Below are positions 3,215 to 21,775 of a stretch of 23,486 bases of DNA, piece after piece (the first letter of the stretch is position 1; each line of letters starts with the position of its first letter). Both the position numbers and the translations under genes were made by a program. Origin of the DNA: Punctularia strigosozonata HHB-11173 SS5 (taxonomy: Eukaryota > Basidiomycota > Agaricomycetes > Corticiales > Punctulariaceae); NCBI RefSeq assembly GCF_000264995.1, contig NW_006767444.1, positions 1,009,624 through 1,033,109 on the forward strand, read 5' to 3'. The notes below the pieces were generated by a model. That model was not told the origin of the DNA and did not search any database. It saw only the letters and a program-made list of their open reading frames with translations.

Positions 3215-6200
3215 TCATGATACTACAGCAGGGCCGAATTCAAGGTTATGTGGAGGCTCCTGCCCACTACTTTCATCATGTAGACCATTCGGACTCGCAT
3301 GACGAGGCGACGTGTTCGGGCTCCCTTTGCCCTCCTCAGCGGCCACATCATGGTCACCATCCAAGCCGTCCTCTTCGGCCCCATGTCCGTCCACATCCAT
3401 CGCATCATCATCGAAGACCGCGCTCAGACTGATATCCGGCTCGGCGGCCGCGTTCGCTCCAGGTGAATCAGGAGTGGACGTAGTCGCAGGCGTGGGCAGC
3501 TGCTTCTGGTCTTTCCCTTGCGAGGATCGCCTCTTCGCCTGGCCGGACTTCTCCAGCTTGCGAATCACCTTAGCGACGTATTCCTTCGCGAACTTCTTGA
3601 TCTTCGCCGTTTTTTCGTCCGAAAGGCTGTCAAGCTTGCCCTCCTTGTACGAGCTCGACTTCTTCTCCTTGTCGGCGATGATCTGGGTGAGCTGTTCGCA
3701 TTACCGCGTCAGCGTTGGCGGGGAAGATGACGACATGCAAAGTTTACCTCTTTGGCGTGCTTCTTGAACAGGTCGTGGTCCATCTGCTTCTGGTACTTGG
3801 ACATGCACTTGACCACGATCGCGCCGACGAGCTTTTGCAACCGCTTCTCCTTCAACGCCTCCTTCTCCTCTGGCGTGAGCGCTTTCTTCGGGTTCGCAAG
3901 CGCCTTCTCCCTCCTCCGCGCCCGCTCCTCCTCTTTCTTCGCCGACTCCGCCGCCTTACGCGCCTCCTCCTCCCGCGCCGCCTCTTGCGCTGCCCGCGCG
4001 GCAGCGATGATATTCGTGACGTGCGTCTTCCGGTTACTCTCAAACCAACATTCCCTGGCGCGCTGCTCTTGAAGCAGACGTTCTTCCTCCGTCAACGGCT
4101 TAAACCTGTCCGAGGACCGAGACGAGTAATCCGGTGTGACGGCCCTTGTCCCTAATGGCACGATGTCCAGGACGGGGACGTCTTCGTGTGGCGTGAAACG
4201 TATCCGCTTCCGCGGCCGTCGATCAGGCTCTTCGAAGAGGACGCGTTCCACCTCTTCGGTGCCATCCTGTCCATGACGTGAGCGTGATCGATCTCATAGG
4301 ATGATATAGTAAGGCACATACCGCCTTCACGCGTTTCGCGATCCGGTATGCCGTCTGTAGTTCAGCCCACTTGTCCAATAGCTATAAAAATATTGTGAGC
4401 TGAAGTCTCGGTTCAACTATAGCATGGCTTAACGCACGCGTTGCGCAAGGCCCTTCAGTTTTTCGTTGTCCGAGTCCGCCCATTTCTGGACGGGAACGCT
4501 GATGCCGGACGCCTCCACCTTATTTCGCTTGAGTAGCGGCCAGGTGTACATGCATTCAAGCGCCTAAAGGTGGGTCGCTCCTCAGACTAGTCATAAATCC
4601 AAGGAAACCATGGGACGTACGACGGTGGTTATATCTTCGTCGTCTTCATAATCAAGGAGGATATTGGTCATTTGACTGAACCCACGAAGTCGCATCACTT
4701 GTCGAAGTGCGGCTTGATCGTCGGTAAGCTGCCGAGTCACTACGTCGGTAATGTAACGAAAACAAGCTGACAAAGGCATCACACCTTGATGCGCGTTATG
4801 AGTTTGTAAAGGACCTTCCGACTGCTGGTCTGCCGAAGGGCTTGGATGACCTTCGGCACGTCCTTCTCTTGCAACGGCTTGAGATCGGGCTACACGTCCC
4901 AGTCAACACATAGCAATAGGCGTTCAAGGGGTAGGCGGGCCGCACGATGTAGTCCTCGTCCAGCTTCCGGCCCTTCTTCTTCTTCGTGCCTTTGAGCTGG
5001 AGCTTCTCCACTTCGTCGGTGATGCCGAGGGCTGAAGCGCGGTTAGGTTGTATCGTGCTACGAGATAGAAGGCTTACCATCGAGGTAGAGATCGTCCATA
5101 GCGCCGATGTCTGTCTGCGTTTTGCCGCCCAGGAATCCAACACAGTTAGGCTCGCCGCAATAACACGGTTGTGCATCGTGCCTGAAGACCGATCAGCACC
5201 GATACGTTCCAGACAAGAGTAGGTGTGCTGCTAACCCATAGCGATCCACGTTGTAGTTGAACGTAAGCTCCTCGTGCTGCCGGATATGCCTGCTCGCGAA
5301 GATGCCCATCCGCACGTGGGTGCCCACCGTCCACTTGGCAACGTAGCAGTTCGGACTGCAGGAGTGATTCGCAAACCGTCCGATACCGCCACGCTTGGTG
5401 GCGTCGATGTACTCGTCCTTCTGGAGCATCATGAAGTAGAAGTGGCGGATGCCCTCCTGGGCGTATTCCCGCATGCGCTTCTTGAACGAGGGATGGGAGA
5501 CGACGTCGCCGACATATTCGTAAATAAATTGGTCTCTGGAGGGCGAGCGGAGAGAATGCTCTGAATATATGTGGATCGATAAAGGTCGGAGACGCACTTT
5601 CGAATGTCCTCCCGCGCCCGCAATCCGAAACCCTTCTTCTCTGTTTGCACAATCTCTATCGGAGCATATTCTCGTCGGTTGAACCTGGAATGTAACCATG
5701 ATTATGAGCCAGAGAGATTGGAGGCCGCTCACAACCTGACGCACCTCTGGTTTCGACAGTGAGCCCCACATCGACACTCGCCCGGCAAGCACTCCACTTG
5801 CGTCAATCTGTTGATACAGTCCGAGCCCTCGCCGCATGCCATCCACGGTTCATCTTCAGCTGTGCGAGTGAAAGCCGCGTCAGCATTGGCGTCCAGCCGG
5901 CGTGAGACTTCCGAGCCGCCAGCTACACGACGGACTCTACGACTACGGAGAAAAGAGCGAGGACTGACCGTGGTCGTACTGGCAGTCGCATGTCATGCCC
6001 TCGAGCGCCTCGCGGGAGCGCCCGAGGGTGCCATACTGGTAGTGGTTCGCCTTGAGCTCCTCAAACGTGGCCATCGCCGCCTCGGTGGCGACGGGCAGGT
6101 CTCCGATGAGCTGGGGGCCCGGCCGCGCCTGCGGCTGCTGCTGGCGCCGCGAGGACGAAGCGCCGGGCGTGCTGGAGTCCCGGTTGGTTTTTACGGGCAG

Positions 6201-9412: not shown

Positions 9413-12400
9413 ATGGTCTCTAGCCTTGCCGCGCAGCTCGCGCAAGGGGCCTCGCTCAATTCTTCTCTCCTGGTTGACCGCTCACGACGCGGACCTACTC
9501 AATCCTATCTCTTCACGGGCCGCAGCGCGGACGAACACGACTTGGACTCTATATATGCCCTCGGATGCAATGGACTACTGCAGCTCGGTCGCCTCAACTC
9601 CGCATTCACGGCGTTCGCGGATACTCTGTTTTCTGACCAGGCGAAGACGACGGACAGGACGCTGCAGACGAAGGCGCAGAACGAGGAACTGGACAACTTG
9701 ATCGCGGAGTTTCTACAGTGCTTGGGTCCGTGGCTGCTCGAGGCCCCGGCAGGAAAAGTGTTGGAGTGGCTCGTGAGGCGGTTCAGGTGCGCTTTAGAAC
9801 AAAAAATGCATCCGTTGGAGGCAGAGAATGACTACTTTGTGCCTGCTCTTCAGAATTCACGAGTTCAACGTTGAATCCGTCATTGCCCTATTCCTCCCAT
9901 ACCACGAATCGCCTCACTTCGCGAAGATGGTTACTATCCTTCACATCCGGTGCGCCTTACGCAACTCATGTCGGTGCTACTCCATCTGCTTACATTCCTA
10001 TTCATATATGCAGCGACCACCCCACATGGCGCTTCCTTCAGCCCTTCGCGAAAGCGGGAAAGTCACTCCCTCGGACCGCCCTCGTCACCGAGATGCTCAA
10101 ATCGCCCGAGCTTACGCGGTCTGCCGTCTCTCTCCTCCCCGCCGCGCTTCGCGCTCAACACGTCCACCGTACCCTCGTTGCATTCACGGCCGGCACGCTG
10201 CTCGAGTACATCTCACGCTCGGAGGGCTTGTCCGAGGGCGTGCTCGCGATGCTCATACCCGCTTTCCTAGCGCCGTTGGAGAAGGACGTGCTCTCAAGGG
10301 GCGAAGAAGGTGGCAGGCCTGCAATGTTGATCAGAGAGGCTATTGTGAGTGTTCCTCTCCCACGTTCCCATTTGTCATCGCCGTTGACGTCTGTCAGCTC
10401 GGGAGTTATGTCCTGCTGGCCGCTCTCAGTCAAAGAAGCACCCTCACTCCGGCTGCACTTAAAACCGCTCTCGAGCGCATGGCTGCGGCTGCGACTTCGG
10501 GCCATGTTGAGGCTAGTCAGTTCATAAACGCGGCCGTGGCGGTATGCGCGCCGCAAGAGGAACTGGAGACGTTGAAGCTGCCCTTGTCTGCGTGAGTCGC
10601 GCCTCGACATATCGTTGGAGAGCACACGATGCTCACCATTCACATGACTTTGTCACAGGGAGATTTCGGACGCCGCTATCAAGGCGCTCGCGTATCACGG
10701 CTCGGACAAGCTCCTAGGTCCTGTGTTAAATAGGGCACTCTCGCCATCAAAGGAAACGCTCTCCGTAGAGATCGCATATCTCGTCGAGAAGCTCTTCACG
10801 GCGTCCAACCCGCCAAGTTCTCTCATTCGCCGCATCACTGCCCTGCTACTCGCGAGAGCGATCCGAAGCAAAAATCGACATGACGCGGAGCGCGCACTGC
10901 TCGCAACGGTTCAACAACGGCATCTCGAGGTGTTCAAAAGCGCTTGTGACGAGTACCTAACCCGTACCGAGGAAGAAGACGACGAAGACCACACTGCCTT
11001 GAGGAATGAAGTGGATCAACTTCTAATCTCCCTGTCGCTGCCGCCGGTACGTTTGTGAACTCGTCTGCTCCAAGGTATGCCAGTCTCATATTCTCGCACC
11101 TTTAGGCAGCCTCCGGGAGTAAACACGCCCTTGCCGATCCGGACATGATCCTCGCTTCCGCACACGCAGACGCGTCCGTCCGTCTCGCCGCCGTCCGGAA
11201 GCTCATCGGCACGCTCATCGAAAATTCCTCCAGTACAGACGAGGCAGAGCTGCAATCTATCCGCTCAGCGCTCCTCCAGCGCGTCCATGACACCGACCCC
11301 TCCGTCGTCGGCGAGTTATACGCCCATCCCGAGCTCATCCTCCCCAGCATCGCGGAAGAGGAAAACGACGAATTCCTCGCGACTCTCGCCGCGCACCTCG
11401 AGTCGAGCGGTTCGCGCCAACTCATTAGGTTGCACCTTACCTTCGTCGCCGCCCACTCCAGCGCGTCATCGTCTGCCGGGTCCACGTTCGACTCTAACGC
11501 CGCAGTGCTGCGCCTATTCTTCCCCTTCCTGATATTCTCTAAGCCGAGACAGAAGAGCGCAGCCGCGGCTTGGGATGTTGTCCAGGCTCATGAAGGTATC
11601 GCCGACTCGGCGCTACTGAAGGGCTGTGTCGACGTCTTGAAAAAATCGGGCGAAATAACCGGGGAGATCGCGATGCGCGAAGCCAACGCCTCCATCGCGG
11701 AGAAGCTAGCAGAGAACCTCATCGCGTTGAACAGCTACGAACAGGTTATAGGGGAGGTTATAGCCCGTCTGCACGAGTCTTCCACATCACCCAATGGCCC
11801 GCACGCGCGCATCCTTGCGTACCTCGTGTTACGATCCTTGCTCAGTCGACTTTCCAGCGAGCAGCAAGTCGAGATGGCACATCGAGCTTTGGACGCCATC
11901 GATTTGCAGTCGCTGGACGCGTTCGCCGAATCGCTGGCCAGAACACAAAGTTCGGAAGACCCACTAGGTGATGACGCGCTCAATCACGCCATTGTAACGA
12001 AGCCAACCAGTCCGAACACGCTCCGTCGCCTACAGGCGTCCTTGTTCGCCTTCTTGCCACAAATCCATAAACCAGAGAGCAATGCGCTTCCTTGGCTCGC
12101 TCAGTCTGGAGATGTGGGTGACGACTCTACGTGGAAAAGGCGCCTATTGACAATGTTACAGGACCACGGTCTTCGTTACGTCCAACTCATGCGTAGGTTG
12201 TACGCCCTGGCCAACGCCACTGGCACGGTGCCGCTTCTCTCTGCGACGATCAACCGCAACCTCTTCGTGGCGCTGGCCACGGACTCGCTCGCATTCCTCG
12301 CCGGCATCTGGATTCGCCGAGACGGAACGGATAGCATCCGTAAGATCGCGCTAGCGCACGCTGTCGCCTTCCTCGCTGCACACACGGATATGCCGAAGCC

Positions 12401-15400
12401 GGTCGACTTCCAGACAGTGCTTCCGTGTCTGTTGGTCGGGCTGCAAAGTGGGGATAGACCGATGCGCGAGGGCGCGATGTCGTGCGTCGTTGTTTTGGCG
12501 CAGCTGGCCACGGCGCAGCAGGCGTCCGCGGTTTATGCGCTGGATACGATCTATGGGAGCCACTCCGGTATGTCCTCCTAGAGACCTCCTGTTCATGAGG
12601 GGTACTGACGAGAAAAATAGCCGGGTTGCAGTACGTGGAATGGGAAGATTCGCGCAGGTACTTGGCAGCCCTTGTCGAACGTCAGGACCATCTGGTCAGC
12701 GACAGCTCTCAATTGCGTGTCTTCCATCGCGAGCTTCTGAGCCGAAGCAAGTCCGACTCGAAAAAGGACGGCGGGTGCGGTCATCGTCTTGTTTTGCCCT
12801 GTTAGCATCTCATCGTAATCGTGCTCCGTGCAGGTATAAGCAGCGCATGTTGTGCTATCTACTTTCACACGTTAGCAACGCGCCGGCGATGGATGTGCGC
12901 CTGCCTATCCTCAGATCATTGCAGGACGTCAAGCACGTGGTCAAGTTCCAGATGCTCATGCCGGTCGTGCAACGTCAGATCGACTTCGTCGAAGCTCACT
13001 CCGAAGTGGCAAACGGAGAAGGCGACGCCGGGTTCGACGAATTCATGACATTGTGTGCGGCATCAGTAGGCGGTCCTGCAGCGCGAGATTGCAATGAGCC
13101 ATCTTCGCAGCAGTGGCCTTTGTTTGGGAAGGCACTGCAATGGTCATTCGGTCCCGGTGGGTCTTATTTTCTAGGTCCTTCGATAGGGTGGTTAGACGTG
13201 ACATGCGTCCGATAACCTCCCTTGTCCGGCCTTACCGATCTTCGTGGTCTGATTTGACGCTCACCGACGGTATTACAGGCATCAACATATGCCCCAACAT
13301 GCGTAAAGCGATGACGGACAACCTGCGTGACCATCTTTTCGCCGCTCTGAACAACGAACGCAAGATGGAGTTGTGCTCAGTCCTATTGGAAATCGGAAGC
13401 CAAGGAGGAGACGTCGTCAGTTCCCTTCCCTTCATAGTCTGTGCATTTTTCTCACTGAACGTCTAGCGTAACGAGTGTCTCGGTGCGCTATCGCACTTGT
13501 TGAACGATGTCCCCGTCATCGTCAAGCTGTTGACGACCGTTCAACCCGCGTCCGACGCTCATGCGAACCGTAGCGCGAAACGAGCCAAATTGGATGGGTA
13601 AGTACCGTTGATGCGCTCAATCCGTTGTATCTGACCATCGGAACCAGCGTCGTGGAAGAGGATAGCCTCCAGTCTTTGGCCTTACTTGCAGAGGCTCTCA
13701 ATAACAAGACTCTCCCGGCATCATTCGACCTTGTGTCAGCTTTGTTGGATACTTTGTCCAGTGTGGTTCATTCCGATGCTACGTTGCAGCTGCAGAGAGG
13801 TTACGTGGCTCAACTGTTGATGTCTGCCCTTGACAACGTCACGTCGCGTCTCGTGGTATGTCTTGTGACTTCAGTGATCGCATGCTGCTAATGCGAGCAC
13901 AGGAATTACCGAATATTGAGCCTAGCCCCATCCGTGCGAGCATCCTGGTGGATGTTATTCGAAGTAAGGGATTCAACTTGCTCATTCAGCATAGATTCTC
14001 AAACTACTCCCAGTTACCGACAATCCACAAACTTTCCACCAGGCCTTGCTGCTCATGGCAACCTTGGCCCGCCTGGCTCCGGACGCTGTCGTGCAAAATA
14101 TTATGCCCATATTCATATTCATGGGCTCAAACGTTTTCCACCGTGACGATCCCTATAGTTTCCGCGTGGTGCAGAAGGTGTGTCGGTTGTTCCCGCCACG
14201 CATAGCTGTACTGAATATTGGACAGACTATCGACAGCATCGTTCCAGTCATGATGGCTACGCTGAGGACTTCACACGAACAAAAACGGGACTTATGGATA
14301 GCTGCCAGGAGCTTCCTGCAACTGTTCACCGACGCGGTGAACCACGTACCTCGTCATCGCCGCCTTGGGTGATGATTTCTCGGCTAGCCGTTCAAGCAAC
14401 GTTTGGCTTACAATATCCGTAGATTTTACTCTCATCTTGTCGACGTTTTGGGGGCAGAAGAGTTCCTGTCCCCAGTCACCATGCTTCTCGTGGACAAGGT
14501 GGCAAGCAGAGTAGCTAGGCAAAGTAGGGAAGAAGCGCGGCAATCGCTCATTATTCCTCTTGCACTGCTTCATCGATCCAGTCGCGCGCTGCAGATCACG
14601 GTATGCACATCTGTATCACATGGGCAATCGCCGGCTAACATTGCAACAGTCGTTCTTAGATTTCCTCGACGAAGCTTACGACTCTCTTCTTACTGCTTTT
14701 GACATGACACCAGAGCGGAACGTATTTCTGTCTGCCTCTCCGTAAGTGTTAGTGAGTGAACCAGGTCATTTTACTCAATTGGAGTTACCAGGGATCCCGA
14801 CGAAGACCACCCATCGCGATCCAAGCAGCTATTGCGACGCGCGCACGCTCTCCTTGTTCTTGTTGCGGAAAGCTTCAAGCTGGCAAAAGAGCCATTTGTC
14901 GGCCCTGCCTCCGAGGACGCAGGGGTAACTATTGGCTCAGTGGTCCCCAAGCTTTTACGTACATATTCGCTATCACCTTCTGGACGGGAGATGGACACCG
15001 CCATAGTTGGTCTCCACCGTACTGCACGTGTGTGTCTCGAGGAAGCGTTGCAAAAGATGGCAGTTCCAGACTTCGCTCGAGCGACGCTGCATATGCTCCG
15101 ATCCGGAGACGATCAGGTATGTCGCACACGATTACAAGAGGTGCTGCCACCGCTGATCGTGTGTTTTACCGCAGATCAAAGTCGCCGCGCTTACTTTGCT
15201 CATCGACCGTCTGCATCTGGTCACCGAGGATGCACGACAACTTATTGCCCCTGTGATTGCGCAGATAGTGGACGTCATTGTCGAAATCACTTCAACCTCA
15301 AAAAGTGAGAACCTGATCCAGGCAGCCTTCAAAAGCTTGAAGGAAATTAGCAACACGATGTGCGCTGGCGAAGAAGCATCCTTGATGCAGGGAATTCCTC

Positions 15401-17027
15401 CTGTTCTCGCCGCCATGCGGACCCGCAGTGACGCCGCAGCAGCAGTTTCTGTGTTACCTTCCTTATGGTAAGGAGGACCGCTTGACATTGACGATGCCAT
15501 CTGGATCTCACAATAACCATCAGCGTGGCTTTGGGCCCACGGGTCATACCGCACTTCCGGGCAGTTGTTCAGGAATGCATCGCGCTTGTGCGCGAAAGCT
15601 TCCGGGATATGGGTAAGAGCTGTTACTCCCGAATAGAGCCGACACTGAACTGAACCCGCCTGTGACAGAGTCGTCTTCTGCAGTGCATGACTGCCTCGAT
15701 GTGCTGAAGAAACTTCTTTCTTCTATTCCTTCGTTCTGGGGAAGCGCAGATATTGCCATGCTGGTGTCGCTATACATGGATTATTCCGTCGCTCCAGGGA
15801 GCCAATCTTCACCTGTAGAGGGAGTCATACGTGCACTTGCAAAACGTGCACCTTCAGATCTGCTACTGACCACGCTCTGCGAGATGTGGCCCTCCGGCGG
15901 TCTAAAGGTCAGTAAATATGCCTTTTTGAGGCATAAAGCTTACTCTGCTTTAGGATGTTCGCAAATATCTGGCGTACTTCGAATGTATGAAACGTGCTCT
16001 TCGCATCGCACAGCGCACTGTGGTATCCGAACACATCCGGCAGTTGTTCAAGGTCTTCATGGCGGCCTTCGACCTTCGGCACGATGTTGAATCCGAATCC
16101 ATCGAGGAGGTCAATCGAATCTGCGTTGCATGATAACTTATAACTTATGACGAGTCTGCAGGCCGAGCATCGTGCAATTGAGGCCTTCGTTGAATTGACG
16201 TCGAAGCTGAACGATATCTCATTCAAGCCACTCTTCCGGCGCCTATACGATTGGTCGTTCACTAACAGCAACCTATCCGCACGTCAAGTCACATTCTGCC
16301 GCACATTCATGGCGTTGTTAGAATACTTCAAGGTAAGTTCGAACATTGCGTACTTCACTGCATCCGCTCACGGCTTTCCCAGGCTCTAATGACACCCTAC
16401 ATGTCATTCTTGTTGCAACCCTTCATCGAGAAACTACTTGCATACTCTTCTGGGTCCGAACGGGATAGAACCCTGTGGACATCTGTTATCCAGGTCCTGG
16501 TCAGGAGTCTTGCATTTGATGACGGAGGCAAGTGGAACCGGATGACCCGTGTGCCTCCTCGCTGACTTGCATGTCCAGCATTCTGGAGAGATGACAAATT
16601 GCGTGCTCTCGTCTCCCCGCTCGTGAATCAGCTCGCGGTTTGCATCAACCTGAACATCGCGGAAGGACGTGATCTGCTTTCAACCTGCCTCACAGCTGTA
16701 GTTGACGCCACTACCGACGACGATTTGCTCAAGAGTATCAACCTGAAGGTATTAATGCATACACGCTCGGAAGAAGTCAAGCTGCGGATTCTTGCCCTCA
16801 ATTGCTCCACGACTCTGTGGGCGGAGCATGGAGGCAAACTCCTCGGTTGGTTGTCTGCTCGCTGCGGAAATGATCTCTAGCTAATCCTTGCGCATTTGCC
16901 AGGTCTTGCGACAGAAACAGCGACATTTATTGCCGAGTGCGCGGAGGACGAGTCCGACAATGTAGTCAAGGCTGCGATAGAGCTGAAGGATGCTGTGGAG
17001 AGTGTCGCGGGAAGCATACAGGTGTAA
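9413..17027 (+). CDS. UTP10: U3 snoRNP / small-subunit processome HEAT-repeat protein Utp10
   Basis: Twenty-four exons join in phase (6,294 nt, 2,097 aa): 9413-9786, 9854-9949, 10014-10344, 10398-10591, 10659-11046, 11106-12567, 12621-12774, 12834-13156, 13279-13415, 13467-13597, 13648-13855, 13903-13963, 14014-14368, 14423-14600, 14650-14741, 14792-15116, 15175-15467, 15524-15612, 15669-15907, 15954-16109, 16162-16332, 16383-16527, 16579-16845, 16903-17027. Family landmarks are the N-terminus SSLAAQLAQGA, WLVRRFRIHEFN (about 119-130), MPIFIFMGSNVFHRDD and HVPRHRR (about 1398-1403), and a BP28CT-type region (about 1790-1960). The protein is helical HEAT-like throughout. Utp10 belongs to the t-UTP group, which binds nascent pre-rRNA in the nucleolus and is needed for 18S processing and efficient Pol I transcription. 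At 2,097 aa it is longer than the yeast protein (about 1,770). One intron is GC-AG, and one is unusually long (13157-13278). Confidence 0.95.
13157..13278 (+). other. UTP10: long UTP10 intron (122 nt)
   Basis: The other UTP10 introns are 46-67 nt. The chosen donor (CCCG|GTGGGT) and acceptor (TTACAG|GC) keep phase and give continuous family-like sequence (ALQWSFGPGINICPNMRKAM). Internal GT and AG dinucleotides would allow a small extra exon, so the local model is less certain than the rest of the gene. Confidence 0.6.
16528..16578 (+). other. UTP10: GC-AG intron in UTP10
   Basis: The exon ends GACGGAG and the intron starts GCAAGT, the optimal donor context for GC-AG introns; the acceptor is TGTCCAG. 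Splicing here gives LAFDDGAFWRDDKLRALV, in phase on both sides. The nearest GT (four bases on) would shift the frame. Retaining the intron would add an in-frame TGA. Confidence 0.85.
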
Positions 17028-17122
17028 TAACAAAATGTAATAACTAAGCAAGGGTATAGATGAAATCGTGTGCTAAGAAACAGTCCCTTGTGAGTCCATG
17101 CTCTCGCCACTTTGCCGCCTAT

Positions 17123-20100
17123 TCAAACGCGTTTCGATGTTTGTACAATCCGAGAGTAATTGGGCAATGACTGAATGCCTGCAAGCGCTGCGAATGAACG
17201 GAGTCTAGACAGGCAAATAATAAGCCAAGGTGCTTCGATGTATGAAAGATGCACGACAAACCGCGAGAAGTTCCTTTGGTGTCGGACGGGAAGCAGCAGG
17301 CATCGAGCACCGAGCCAGGAAGTCGTGTAGAGATCGCGAGTAGGCGTCAGGATCATCGAGCGGAGGCCATTGGCGGCCGATCTGACTGGCATCTTGCACG
17401 TCCGAAAACGGAGGTACAGTTTGCAGCGTTTCCCAGATAGTGGCTCCGAGGGACCACACGTCGACCTTCAAAGCATCGTATGATCCACTCCGTACCTCCG
17501 GAGCCTAGCGTGAAGATGCGTGAGGGAGGCTCATGTACTGGTGACAAACAATCCCCCACCTGCCAATAGACAACCCCTACTACGTCGGAGCATGTCGGGC
17601 TCTCCGCCGTTACGCGCACGCCGTTGGAAAAATCGGCTGTGGCAGCAATCAGAAGGAATGGGAGGATCCATGCTGAAAAATCCTTACCCAGCTTCAGAAC
17701 GCCTTCACAGTTCAAGAGCATGTTATCAGATCGCACATCCCGATGTGCGATGCCATGCGTCTGAAGATACGACAACCCGGACAAGATCTGGGGAAGAGTG
17801 TCACGGGGGTCAGGATTGCAAAGCTATCAGCAGGGCAGAAAACCCACGTCTGAGGCGAACCGGGCGACGATCACCTCCGTGATCTCCAGGCCCTCCTCCA
17901 CAAGTCCGATCACGTCCGCCAAGCTCCGCTCCATGAGCTCCATCCGTATCCAAAGCGAATCCTCTACCAGGTCCATGTAGAGACCATCCATGGTCAATAT
18001 GTTTGGATGACTGAGACCCCTCATCAAGCTGAGTTCGTGCTTCAGCTCGCCTATCTTCGGGCTCCCGGTCGGGCTGACTTGCACGTTCTTGATCGCGACT
18101 GTCTGTTTGTTCGATGACGGGGAGCTGTCCTTCGCCGCGGCTCGAGCCCACGCCTTCGCAGACGGCGTATGAGATGCTGCAGAGGACAGGTCTGGGAGCG
18201 GAACGACGCGTGCGGCATACACGCTGCCCGACTCGCCCTCCGCGATCTCGCGAAGATCGACGTATCGTTCACGTGGGTCGAGCGCATCGTTGATAAAGTC
18301 ATCGAGCGGCGCAAGGACCTCGGCGAGCCACCCGCGATAGCGTACCGCGGGGGTTGCGGGTGACAGCGAGCTCGGAGATGAGGGATTCTTCGAGTGGGCA
18401 GGGGATGTGACCGGAGACTTCCCCGCTGAGGTCGTAGCAGAGTTTGCCTCCGGTGGGATGCCGCTGATAACGATCCGCGGGCGCTGATTCCTCTTCTGGG
18501 CAGCGGCGGACAAAGGCGAGGTCGACTGGGACCTGATATGTACCGTCTCCGTCTCCTGACTCTCCTTCTCTTCCCGCTCCCCATCGTCATCCGAGGCTGA
18601 GTCAGACGCTTCCTCGGGCTCGTCCTGGTCCAGCTCAAAGAAGCTCTGGGTGGCGCTCGGGCTCGGACTGGGGGTCGCTTGCAAGTAGGCAAGCGACGGC
18701 GTCTTTGGTGTCTTCGGAGCATCGCTCGCGCCCTCCGACGACACGGACGTCGCTACCGTCTGCCGCCTCGACGAGCCCGTGAGCGACGTCCACCCGCTCT
18801 CGGCGCTCCCGCTGCCACTCCGACTCGCGCTCCCGCTACCACTACCTTCGTCCTCCGGCTCTTCGTCCTCGTCCACGCCCTCTATAGTCTGGTGCACACC
18901 CTCCAGCAGCAGGCTCAACCCTCGATCTTGCCTCAGGTCGGTCCGCGGCTGCAAGTCTGCACCGGCCTCATTCCTCCCTACGTCCCTCTTCTCCACCGGC
19001 GATGTCCCCGCCGACCCTGACCTACTCCTTACTCCAGCCCCAATCACATTCGCCTTCGTTGCGTATGCCACCACCGCACCCCGCACGATGCTCGCTCCCT
19101 CCGCCGAACTGCGGTCCACATCCCGCAGCGTTGATGCTGAGTCCCTCTCCGGCCTGACCGTCAGGTTGGAGTCGCGGTTGTCCCCCCTCCTCGTCACGCC
19201 CGGCAGTAAAAATTCGTCGTCCTCATCTTCCTCCTCCTCTCGCCGATTCGGTACCGTCATCCCTGCGGACAGCGGTGACCGGCCCGCGATCGCCTCCCGC
19301 GCAAGCCTCTCCATCAGCTTCCGTCTGTCCGGGCTGCTCAGCGTCGCAGGAATGACCGGGCTGCCCTCCTCGCCCTCGTCCAACGCGGGGCTCCTCACCA
19401 GCACGGACGCCACGCCCGGTGAGTCCTGCCGCACCATTCCCAGCAGCTCGTTCCACAACGGCGTCGTCGCTGGCGGCGCCGCGTCTCCCTCCTCCGCTAT
19501 ACTGGACCGCGACGACGGCCGGCCGAGCGACGTGAGCGGAACGGGTTTGTGCTTCGTCTTAGGACTCGTGACGTTCGGCGCGGCCGTCGACGGAGGGGAG
19601 GCGGTCTGCGCCCCAATCGGCGCGAACGAGCTGTAGCTCGGCGGACTCGGGAATTCGCTAAGGTCCAAGCTCGGATCCGTATCACTTCGCCTCGAATAGT
19701 CGCTGACCGTGCTCCCGTCCGTCATCTCCCGCTCTCGCTCCCTCTCGTGCGGTCGCACCGCCGGCTCCTCTGCGACCTCCTGCTGCGGCTTCCTCCTCAA
19801 CGACGACCCGCGGGGCGGATAGCCCTTGGGCACCACACTGGCGCTCGCCGGGCTTCCCTTCGCGCTGGCCGAGCTCGATCCCCCTGACCCGGCGCTCGGC
19901 AGCACCGCCGAGTCGCGCCTCCCCTTGCTCTCCCACGGCTTACCGCCGCCCGCACCATCTTCTCGCGCGCTCGGTATGCTGGAGAACAGCTCCTCGGTCC
20001 AGCTCGTGAGATCGCCGAGCGGCGCGTCGAGCGACAGCCGGGGAGGCGCGAACGACATGCGTTTTCGTCGCGGCGGGGACGTGAGCGAAGCGGCGGTAAA

Positions 20101-21775
20101 CGTCGATGTGGACGCGGACGCGAAGGAAGCATTGTTGGAGGCGGAGTCGGACGGCCTGCCGGGAGAGGATGTGGTAGACGCGGGAGACGAGATAGATGCC
20201 GAAGCCGAAGCCAGGGAGGTGACCTGGTCCTGCTCCTGCAGCCTGGGCGGCTGCGGCGGGGGGTCCTTGTTCGGCGTCGTCGTCCCAAACTGGCCAGAGT
20301 CCATTCCTCCGAACCCCGCCTTCTCCTTCTCGGGTAGCGGCACCATGGATCGATCGGACGATGCGTACGCGGGGGGTGGCGTGAACGGTGTTACGGGGTT
20401 GTTCACCACCACGAGCTCGGGCTGCTCGCGCGTGCGCTGCCGCGTTGGCCTGGAGCGTGGTTGTAGCGGCGTAGAATCTGCTATTGTGAGCGGCGCTGGC
20501 GCCGTGGCCGGAATCACAGGAGATGAGGAAAGCGAACGTTGAGAAGAGGATGTCGTAGATATGGAATGCTGTAGCGTGATTTGCGGCGCGGGTGAGGTTG
20601 ATGATGGCAGAGGCTCGTCGCTCGTGAAACTGGACGAGCTCGACGCGTTCGAGTACTTGCGCTGTGCCGCGGCCGGGCGCCGTCGGGATGCGGATGCGGA
20701 GGAGGACGCGAGGGAGTATTGCGAGTCCGAGCGCGGGAGCGAGCTCATGCGAGGCCGGGGCACGATACCGACGCCAGCTGCCCGGGGGATCGTGCCCGTG
20801 CCCAATATCGGCTGTTGGGGGGCATAGGGGTTCGGGAGTTCGAGGTCGACATGATTGGAGAGGGATGCGGTGGAGGCGGAGGCGAGCGTCTGCGGTGAGC
20901 GCGCGCGAAGACGCTGTTGGAGGATCGCGGCGATCTCGTCGTCAGTGAAGCCGGCCTGTGCGAGGGAGGCGGTCCATGAGGGTGGCAATCCGCCGAACCT
21001 GCGTGTACACGATGTGAGCGATGGGATGATCCGGGATCAGAACGGAGAAACTGGGCGAGTGAAGGGGGATTGATCGCTGAATACGGCGGGAGAGGGGACA
21101 TACGCTTCGTCGACGTGAACATTGTGCTATATATGCGCATATAGACAGATATATCAGTCAGTCTCGCGCTCGATCAACCACATAAAACAGAGAGGAAGGG
21201 AGACGCACCTGGAAGTTCCATGGCATCGATATACCCTCGTCTTGTTGCGGTGGTGGAGCCGGGAGCTCAGGTTTTGGCGGCTTTGGGCTCTTGCTGCGGC
21301 CGAACATGAGCTTGGCGAACGGGCTCTTACGAGGCGCTGCATCGGGTGTTAGGAGGCCGTTACTGCTACCCCCGCTGGGCAAACGCGGAGTCGAGCCATT
21401 CGAGAGGTTGGTGAGCGACGGCGCGTCGACCTGGACGAAGCCATAGGGGGGCGAACGCGGGGCGGGCGTGCCTGGTAGCGACGGCGTCTGACTACGACTA
21501 TACGCGCTCGTAGGGTTCAAGCTGGTACCGCTGGTGGGGTTGTTCGGATGGTTGTTGTAGGCATTGTAGATGGGGGTGTTGAAGGAGGAGGGTGCGGCAG
21601 AGACGTCGGATGGCGCGAGGGAGACGAACGAGCGGTTGTCGGGCTGGAGGTAGTACTCGTCCTTCGGAGGCGGCGGGGGCGGCTTCCCCGACGATGAGCC
21701 CGCGCCTGAGCCCGCGCCCAGCTTGAAGACCTTCAGCGTCGAGAAGCGCGAGTGTTGTCGACCGTTCGTGCTCAT
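17123..21775 (-). CDS. p21-activated (PAK/Ste20-like) protein kinase with CRIB domain and divergent catalytic residues
   Basis: Seven exons from the 5' end: 21775-21209, 21126-21104, 20998-17848, 17787-17688, 17636-17560, 17504-17255, 17187-17123 (about 1,410 aa). The N-terminus has Pro-rich runs. The CRIB motif (ISMPWNFQ-HNVHV, 182-194) precedes an inhibitory-type segment (GLPPSW, AGFTDDEIAAIL). A Ser/Thr/Pro-rich, partly acidic disordered linker spans about 220-1090. The kinase domain is about 1109-1395: Gly loop GESGSV, a 35-residue insert, VAIK lysine K1167, HRDVRSDN (1262-1269), DFS (1282-1284) and APE (1307-1309). PAKs are Rho/Cdc42 effectors controlling polarity and growth. There is no PH domain, so it is not a Cla4 type. 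The DFG glycine, the catalytic-loop lysine and the activation-loop threonine are replaced. The last junction is uncertain: a donor after 17262 would give a different tail, ending at 17119. Confidence 0.9.
21104..21126 (-). other. 23-nt microexon encoding the second half of the CRIB motif
   Basis: The reverse complement codes HNVHVDEA, with the last codon split. It has a TATATAG acceptor and a GTATGT donor, and sits between introns of 82 and 105 nt. It completes the I-S-x-P-x-x-F-x-H-x-x-H signature begun in exon 1. Skipping it would remove both histidines and shift the frame. Confidence 0.85.

Follow-up and report, generated by a model that had tools for sequence, protein, structure and literature searches.

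A divergent, putative third PAK gene in Punctularia strigosozonata has an intact frame and a kinase switch that looks altered

What becomes of a PAK-type kinase whose switch residues have been replaced? This question is raised by a gene of Punctularia strigosozonata HHB-11173 SS5 that we refer to as the divergent PAK. It lies in a window of 23,486 nucleotides (the whole stretch of DNA that we analyzed, G000:C12:1009624-1033109, from a genome of 33.6 Mb in 32 contigs; positions below are counted from the first base of the window). A first-pass annotation, made from the letters of the window, had described a PAK-family kinase with replacements in the catalytic loop, the DFG motif and the activation loop. 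Our best explanation, which we hold with evenly balanced confidence, is that the gene encodes an intact, divergent third PAK that acts as an effector of Rho GTPases (Cdc42/Rac). This effector would be recruited by its CRIB domain, and its kinase would be pre-set and limited by location, with weak and/or re-targeted catalysis.

The coding region is on the minus strand and runs from an ATG at 21775 to 17073. It encodes 1430 amino acids in seven exons (21775-21209, 21126-21104, 20998-17848, 17787-17688, 17636-17560, 17504-17262, and 17204-17073). This is a homology model, made without transcript evidence, and the introns that it uses are GT-AG. The span 17123-17787, which had been given for the gene, covers no more than the final portion of the kinase domain. 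The predicted protein has an N-terminal CRIB/PBD, a middle of 885 residues that by eye looks to be of low complexity, and a C-terminal STE20-type kinase domain.

The seventh, C-terminal exon was absent from the first-pass annotation. Without an extra splice, the frame hits a TAG (17207-17205) shortly past KELLA. We set this TAG aside as the true C-terminus and prefer a further intron: most likely, the TAG sits inside an intron of 57 bases (17205..17261 on the minus strand; GTTTGT...CTAG, phase 0, after ELLA). The exon is a homology-based proposal, which we added because the position of this last intron matches that in the Ste20-type and Cla4-type genes of the same genome, which have a phase-0 intron directly after the matching LLA or LLD. 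(The names Ste20, Cla4, and WASP for genes in this genome, as well as the group names in our tree, are our own assignments by resemblance.) Splicing out 17261-17205 gives KELLATPFIRSACRHS, and the stop then ends at 17073. The C-terminal joint becomes KELLATPFIRSACRHSVIAQLLSD, similar to the usual LLxHPF terminus.

The window also contains other genes. A large multi-exon gene on the plus strand (roughly 10000-17027; the limits are approximate) converges on the divergent PAK, and the two stops are about 46 bases apart. The stop of this neighbor is seemingly at 17025-17027 (read by eye, with the bases checked). We take the neighbor to resemble UTP10/HEATR1; Pfam gave no match for the two of its open frames that were searched. 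The open frames at 3709-5849 on the minus strand contain SRI and SET domains (PF08236 and PF00856) and are probably a single gene for a Set2-like histone methyltransferase.

The CRIB/PBD of the divergent PAK (ISMPWNFQHNVHVDEAFGGLPPSWTASLAQAGFTDDEIAAILQQR) is at 20911..21232 on the minus strand, has two introns within it, and matches PF00786 with 26.8 bits (the cut-off is 21.3). The match covers positions 2-45 only of the 59-position profile, while the matches in the Ste20-type and Cla4-type genes run to positions 59 and 58. Those two genes also carry a NPQAVLDVLKFY-like segment, which we looked for in the divergent PAK and did not find. In group I PAKs, an autoinhibitory domain overlaps with the PBD, and the activation loop contains a Thr; in the divergent PAK, no such domain is recognizable by sequence, and the loop has Asp. 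That the PBD match lacks the portion where the PAK autoinhibitory domain would overlap is an addition to the first-pass annotation. The divergent PAK may have a structural equivalent of the autoinhibitor with another sequence. Also, the WASP-like CRIB in the same genome likewise ends early (at 46 of 59), so a short PBD match is by itself uninformative about the control of the kinase.

A search of the genome for PBDs gave three matches (Ste20-type, Cla4-type, and WASP-like) and missed the intron-split CRIB of the divergent PAK. The third match, L011 (G000:C9:840210-843341), looks WASP-like by eye, with a proline-rich stretch, and we rejected it as a kinase.

The kinase domain (17193..18264 on the minus strand, with approximate limits; exons 3-7) matches PF00069 with 126.9 bits. 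The residues that had been reported for it are all present in the minus-strand sequence. The catalytic loop is HRDVRSDN (17722..17745), with Arg in place of Lys (CGA at 17733-17731). DFG is replaced by DFS (17626..17634; the Ser codon is TCC at 17628-17626). Asp is in the position of the activation-loop Thr (17584..17586), the column of Thr423 of PAK1; the earlier suggestion that it could be a built-in acid stands. Val is in the position of the P+1 Thr (17572..17574), and APE is kept, in the next exon (17504-17496). Once spliced, the protein reads HRDVRSDN, LADFSNG, and SDVVGVVYWQAPEV, and the activation-loop segment after DFS is SDVVGVVYWQAPE. The ATP-binding Lys (VAIK, 18088..18090), the alpha-C Glu (18034..18036), the HRD Asp, the DFG Asp, and the Asn are kept as well. 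We also found changes that had not been described: the first Gly of the Gly-loop is Ala, the Pro of GTPYW is Val, and the Met of YWMAPE is Gln. An insert of 29 residues separates beta-2 from beta-3, and there is a 4-residue gap near alpha-G.

By these features the gene is a third PAK, beside the Ste20-type and Cla4-type genes. We make this assignment because of the CRIB domain, the SDN in the catalytic loop, and the gene structure; the tree is neutral. Besides the two Pfam matches, the PDB sequences nearest to the kinase domain support it: PAK 1, 2, 3, or 6 account for the best 21 (among the best 60 of 2508 matches, which we inspected). Catalytic-loop SDN occurs in just two of the 60 other loci with a fully readable loop, and these are Ste20 and Cla4. 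A phase-1 intron that splits the codon preceding DF(G/S) (17637..17687 on the minus strand) is found in all three PAK-type genes and in 0 of the 62 other judgeable loci. (At this place, 58 of 67 other loci read straight through, 6 are interrupted, and 3 are not judgeable. The six are Ste20, Cla4, and L022, L035, L044, and L052, and by eye the latter four have no intron there.) The top-scoring other kinase in the genome is the Ste20-type gene (37%), and over the compared columns the identity to the Ste20-type and Cla4-type genes is 34% and 35%. We did not find a close paralogue or second allele in this genome, or relatives in viral contigs (where the search could detect only close ones).

We computed a maximum-likelihood tree of 49 kinase domains: the divergent PAK, Ste20, Cla4, human PAK1, and 45 of 65 other loci (the 20 with under 140 aligned columns were left out). 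The divergent PAK is one of the 13 members of an STE-like clade (98% support), where it sits on a long branch of 0.89 substitutions per site and not within the PAK clade. Monophyly of the PAKs was not rejected (p-AU 0.34), and neither were four other placements (p-AU 0.25-0.54). Cla4 and the divergent PAK have an alpha-E intron in common, which suggested that the divergent PAK might be the sister or a direct derivative of Cla4, but this placement was rejected (p-AU 0.010). Another kinase, L050, also appears to be interrupted by an intron at this position, so we did not use the alpha-E intron as evidence.

Both halves of the classical PAK switch look altered, because the stretch after the CRIB is unrecognizable as an autoinhibitor and because the loop Thr is Asp. 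We infer GTPase binding, a lack of autoinhibition, and kinase activity as follows. The CRIB domain would recruit the protein to Cdc42/Rac, and the kinase fold, with its ATP-binding, metal-binding, and catalytic-base residues kept, could be functional. The loop Asp, in place of a phosphorylated Thr, could pair with the HRD Arg, and DFS would make the loop more rigid in its "in" state. The kinase would then be pre-set, and its main limit would be where the GTPase puts it, instead of loop phosphorylation or a classical autoinhibitor. Catalysis would be weak and/or re-targeted, since the P+1 Thr and the Lys of the catalytic loop have both been replaced.

The first-pass annotation had treated the replacements as alarming. 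They are really present, but two of them have precedents in working enzymes. Arg at HRDxK is known from active tyrosine kinases. DFS is found in TbDYRK, which is active in vitro and keeps about 70% of its activity if the Ser is changed to Ala and about 13% if it is changed to Gly; its authors propose a pre-activated state and report that 0.4% of human kinases carry DFS (PMC7136023, in the portion available). For the loop acid, the excerpted text of PMC6860928 gives examples of both kinds: PAK1 T423E is constitutively active, and S474E in PAK4 has no effect, so an acid in the loop need not activate. Several features of the divergent PAK speak against catalysis. The Val at P+1 is unusual, and the multiple joint replacements, the Ala in the Gly-loop, and the alpha-G gap suggest that catalysis is reduced or absent.

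A close rival, which we consider quite possible without favoring it, is that the protein is a pseudokinase scaffold. Its CRIB would bind Rho GTPases, its 885-residue middle would bind partners, and its kinase fold would just bind nucleotide or dock kinases. The other kinases in the genome bear on this. There are at least 104 kinase clusters, including the divergent PAK, and we read 67 of the 103 others (a fast HMM routine joined the exon fragments of these entries, and single entries may be off). Among the readable other loci, 62 of 64 have the HRDxK Lys (the exceptions are L064, with Arg, and L077, with Cys), the DFG Gly is kept in 63 of 64 (the exception is L075, with Asn), and P+1 is Thr or Ser in 55 of 59 (the exceptions are L058, L027, L064, and L053). 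None of the 67 departs at all three positions together, as the divergent PAK does, which favors a scaffold; L064 departs at two. An acid in the column of the loop Thr is present in 4 of 58 readable other loci, so the Asp replacement alone is not rare. In favor of our best explanation, the divergent PAK keeps 15 of the 19 columns that are conserved at ≥80% in this kinome, and elsewhere it matches Ste20 or Cla4 at 51 of 145 columns (p 0.0004; the two rates are measured not quite alike). By the standards of this genome, 15 of 19 columns is a small share (among 63 loci scored, 3 are below and 2 are equal), which again is what a scaffold might show. However, a degenerate kinase from the same genome, L077, keeps just 11 of 18. 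Also against a scaffold, the beta-3 Lys, the HRD Asp, and the DFG Asp, the loss of any of which would mark a pseudokinase, are all kept. Human kinases have been classed as catalytic by these residues, and the divergent PAK would count as catalytic under this rule (PMC10401967, as far as its text was available). There is a precedent for kinase-independent function, as the kinase domain of PAK1 is dispensable for pathogen-driven actin remodeling (PMC8432889, from part of the article).

Some of the exceptional loci in this genome can be described further. L064 (G000:C4:260992-264285) reads HGDLRGAN and GGNSRWLAPE and is the only other locus that we read with Arg at HRDxK. L075 (G000:C5:1921432-1924728) is a kinase with DFN replacing DFG, presumably as in STK32/YANK kinases. 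L077 (G000:C6:278803-282435), with the motifs HCDLCIDH and SLG, groups with L007 at 100% and has a long branch. Within 25 kb of L077 there are two further kinase matches, and G000:C6:298175-302830 was noted together with it; this region is possibly a case of kinase decay or a cluster of pseudokinases.

It is improbable, in our view, that the divergent PAK is an active kinase that differs in its choice of substrate, with P+1 Val and the catalytic-loop Arg forming a combination that recalls tyrosine kinases. In Ser/Thr kinases, the P+1 and HRDxK positions touch each other and the acceptor residue, and the fact that both are altered together would fit this idea. But Pfam scores the domain higher as Pkinase (126.9 bits) than as PK_Tyr_Ser-Thr (101.4 bits), and the nearest solved sequences are Ser/Thr PAKs.

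We give very little credence to the view that this is a copy in decay, or an ordinary PAK gene read with wrong splicing: the long branch would fit, but there is no internal stop in 1430 codons, the genome has no close duplicate, and the unusual residues lie within exons, whose borders are partly common to the Ste20-type and Cla4-type genes. The intact frame and GT-AG introns had been cited against decay before, and our simulation bears this out. If a 300-codon kinase region decays neutrally to 35% identity, it acquires 9.1 stops on average, and 0 of 500 runs were free of stops. Sequencing error or recent decay is unlikely because the frame is open and because the Arg, Ser, Asp, and Val replacements are each two nucleotides away from the canonical residue (the Ala in the Gly-loop is one away).

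A broader proposal can be made, although we find it doubtful: the divergent PAK might represent a third class of PAKs in mushroom-forming fungi. In this class, the two-part switch (the autoinhibitory helix and the phosphorylation of the loop Thr) would have been taken apart, with a hard-wired acid and a stiffened DFS loop in its stead, and output would be controlled by GTPase-guided location only. Accounts of polarity signaling in fungi mostly center on Ste20 and Cla4, to which budding yeast adds Skm1. A further PAK with altered switch residues, after the CRIB as well as in the kinase loop, would offer a natural experiment on PAK regulation.

The closest known systems are in the same genome. 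As had been anticipated, separate Ste20-type (C5:504750-506457) and Cla4-type (C24:192654-194699) genes coexist with the divergent PAK. Like it, they combine a CRIB with a C-terminal STE20-type kinase domain and HRDxxSDN, and they share its introns before DFG and after LLA/LLD. Unlike it, they keep HRDIK, DFG, TMVGTPYWMAPE, and a full PBD. Budding yeast Skm1 is a Cla4-like kinase, whereas a placement as sister to Cla4 was rejected for the divergent PAK. Skm1 is a third PAK beside Ste20 and Cla4, as here (PMC2777384, in the part available), and we liken the two by name, not by comparison of their sequences. For Wolfiporia cocos, the published kinome counts 11 STE kinases, 7 of which are in its table, and names a single STE20 and a single CLA4 among them (PMC5030230, partial text). 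Our literature search found no such PAK in a basidiomycete among the matches listed.

Human PAK1 (PDB 4zji and 1yhv) gives the best PDB matches to the kinase domain. Unlike the divergent PAK, it has Thr423 (in 4zji), DFG, HRDIK, and the P+1 Thr; 1yhv has Glu in the position of Thr423. The best PDB match to the PBD is 4mit_E (listed as a putative PAK), which we take to be EhPAK4 of Entamoeba. The two share a short CRIB hairpin, LPPSW/FPPEW, and an AGxTxxEI segment; the CRIB of the divergent PAK is 3 residues shorter, and the E-value of the match is only 0.0061. The PBD of EhPAK4 binds EhRacC and has a deviating helix, according to the available part of PMC8847673. The autoinhibitory domain described for group I PAKs (PMC6860928, in excerpt) is unrecognizable in the divergent PAK. 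In TbDYRK from Trypanosoma brucei, as in the divergent PAK, the Gly of DFG has become Ser and the phosphorylatable loop residue is lost, and TbDYRK is a working kinase (PMC7136023, again from a portion of the paper). TbDYRK belongs to the DYRK family and not to the PAKs, so this is an analogy of mechanism only. With the divergent PAK one could ask whether a kinase beyond the trypanosomes is made pre-active by DFS and a built-in acid.
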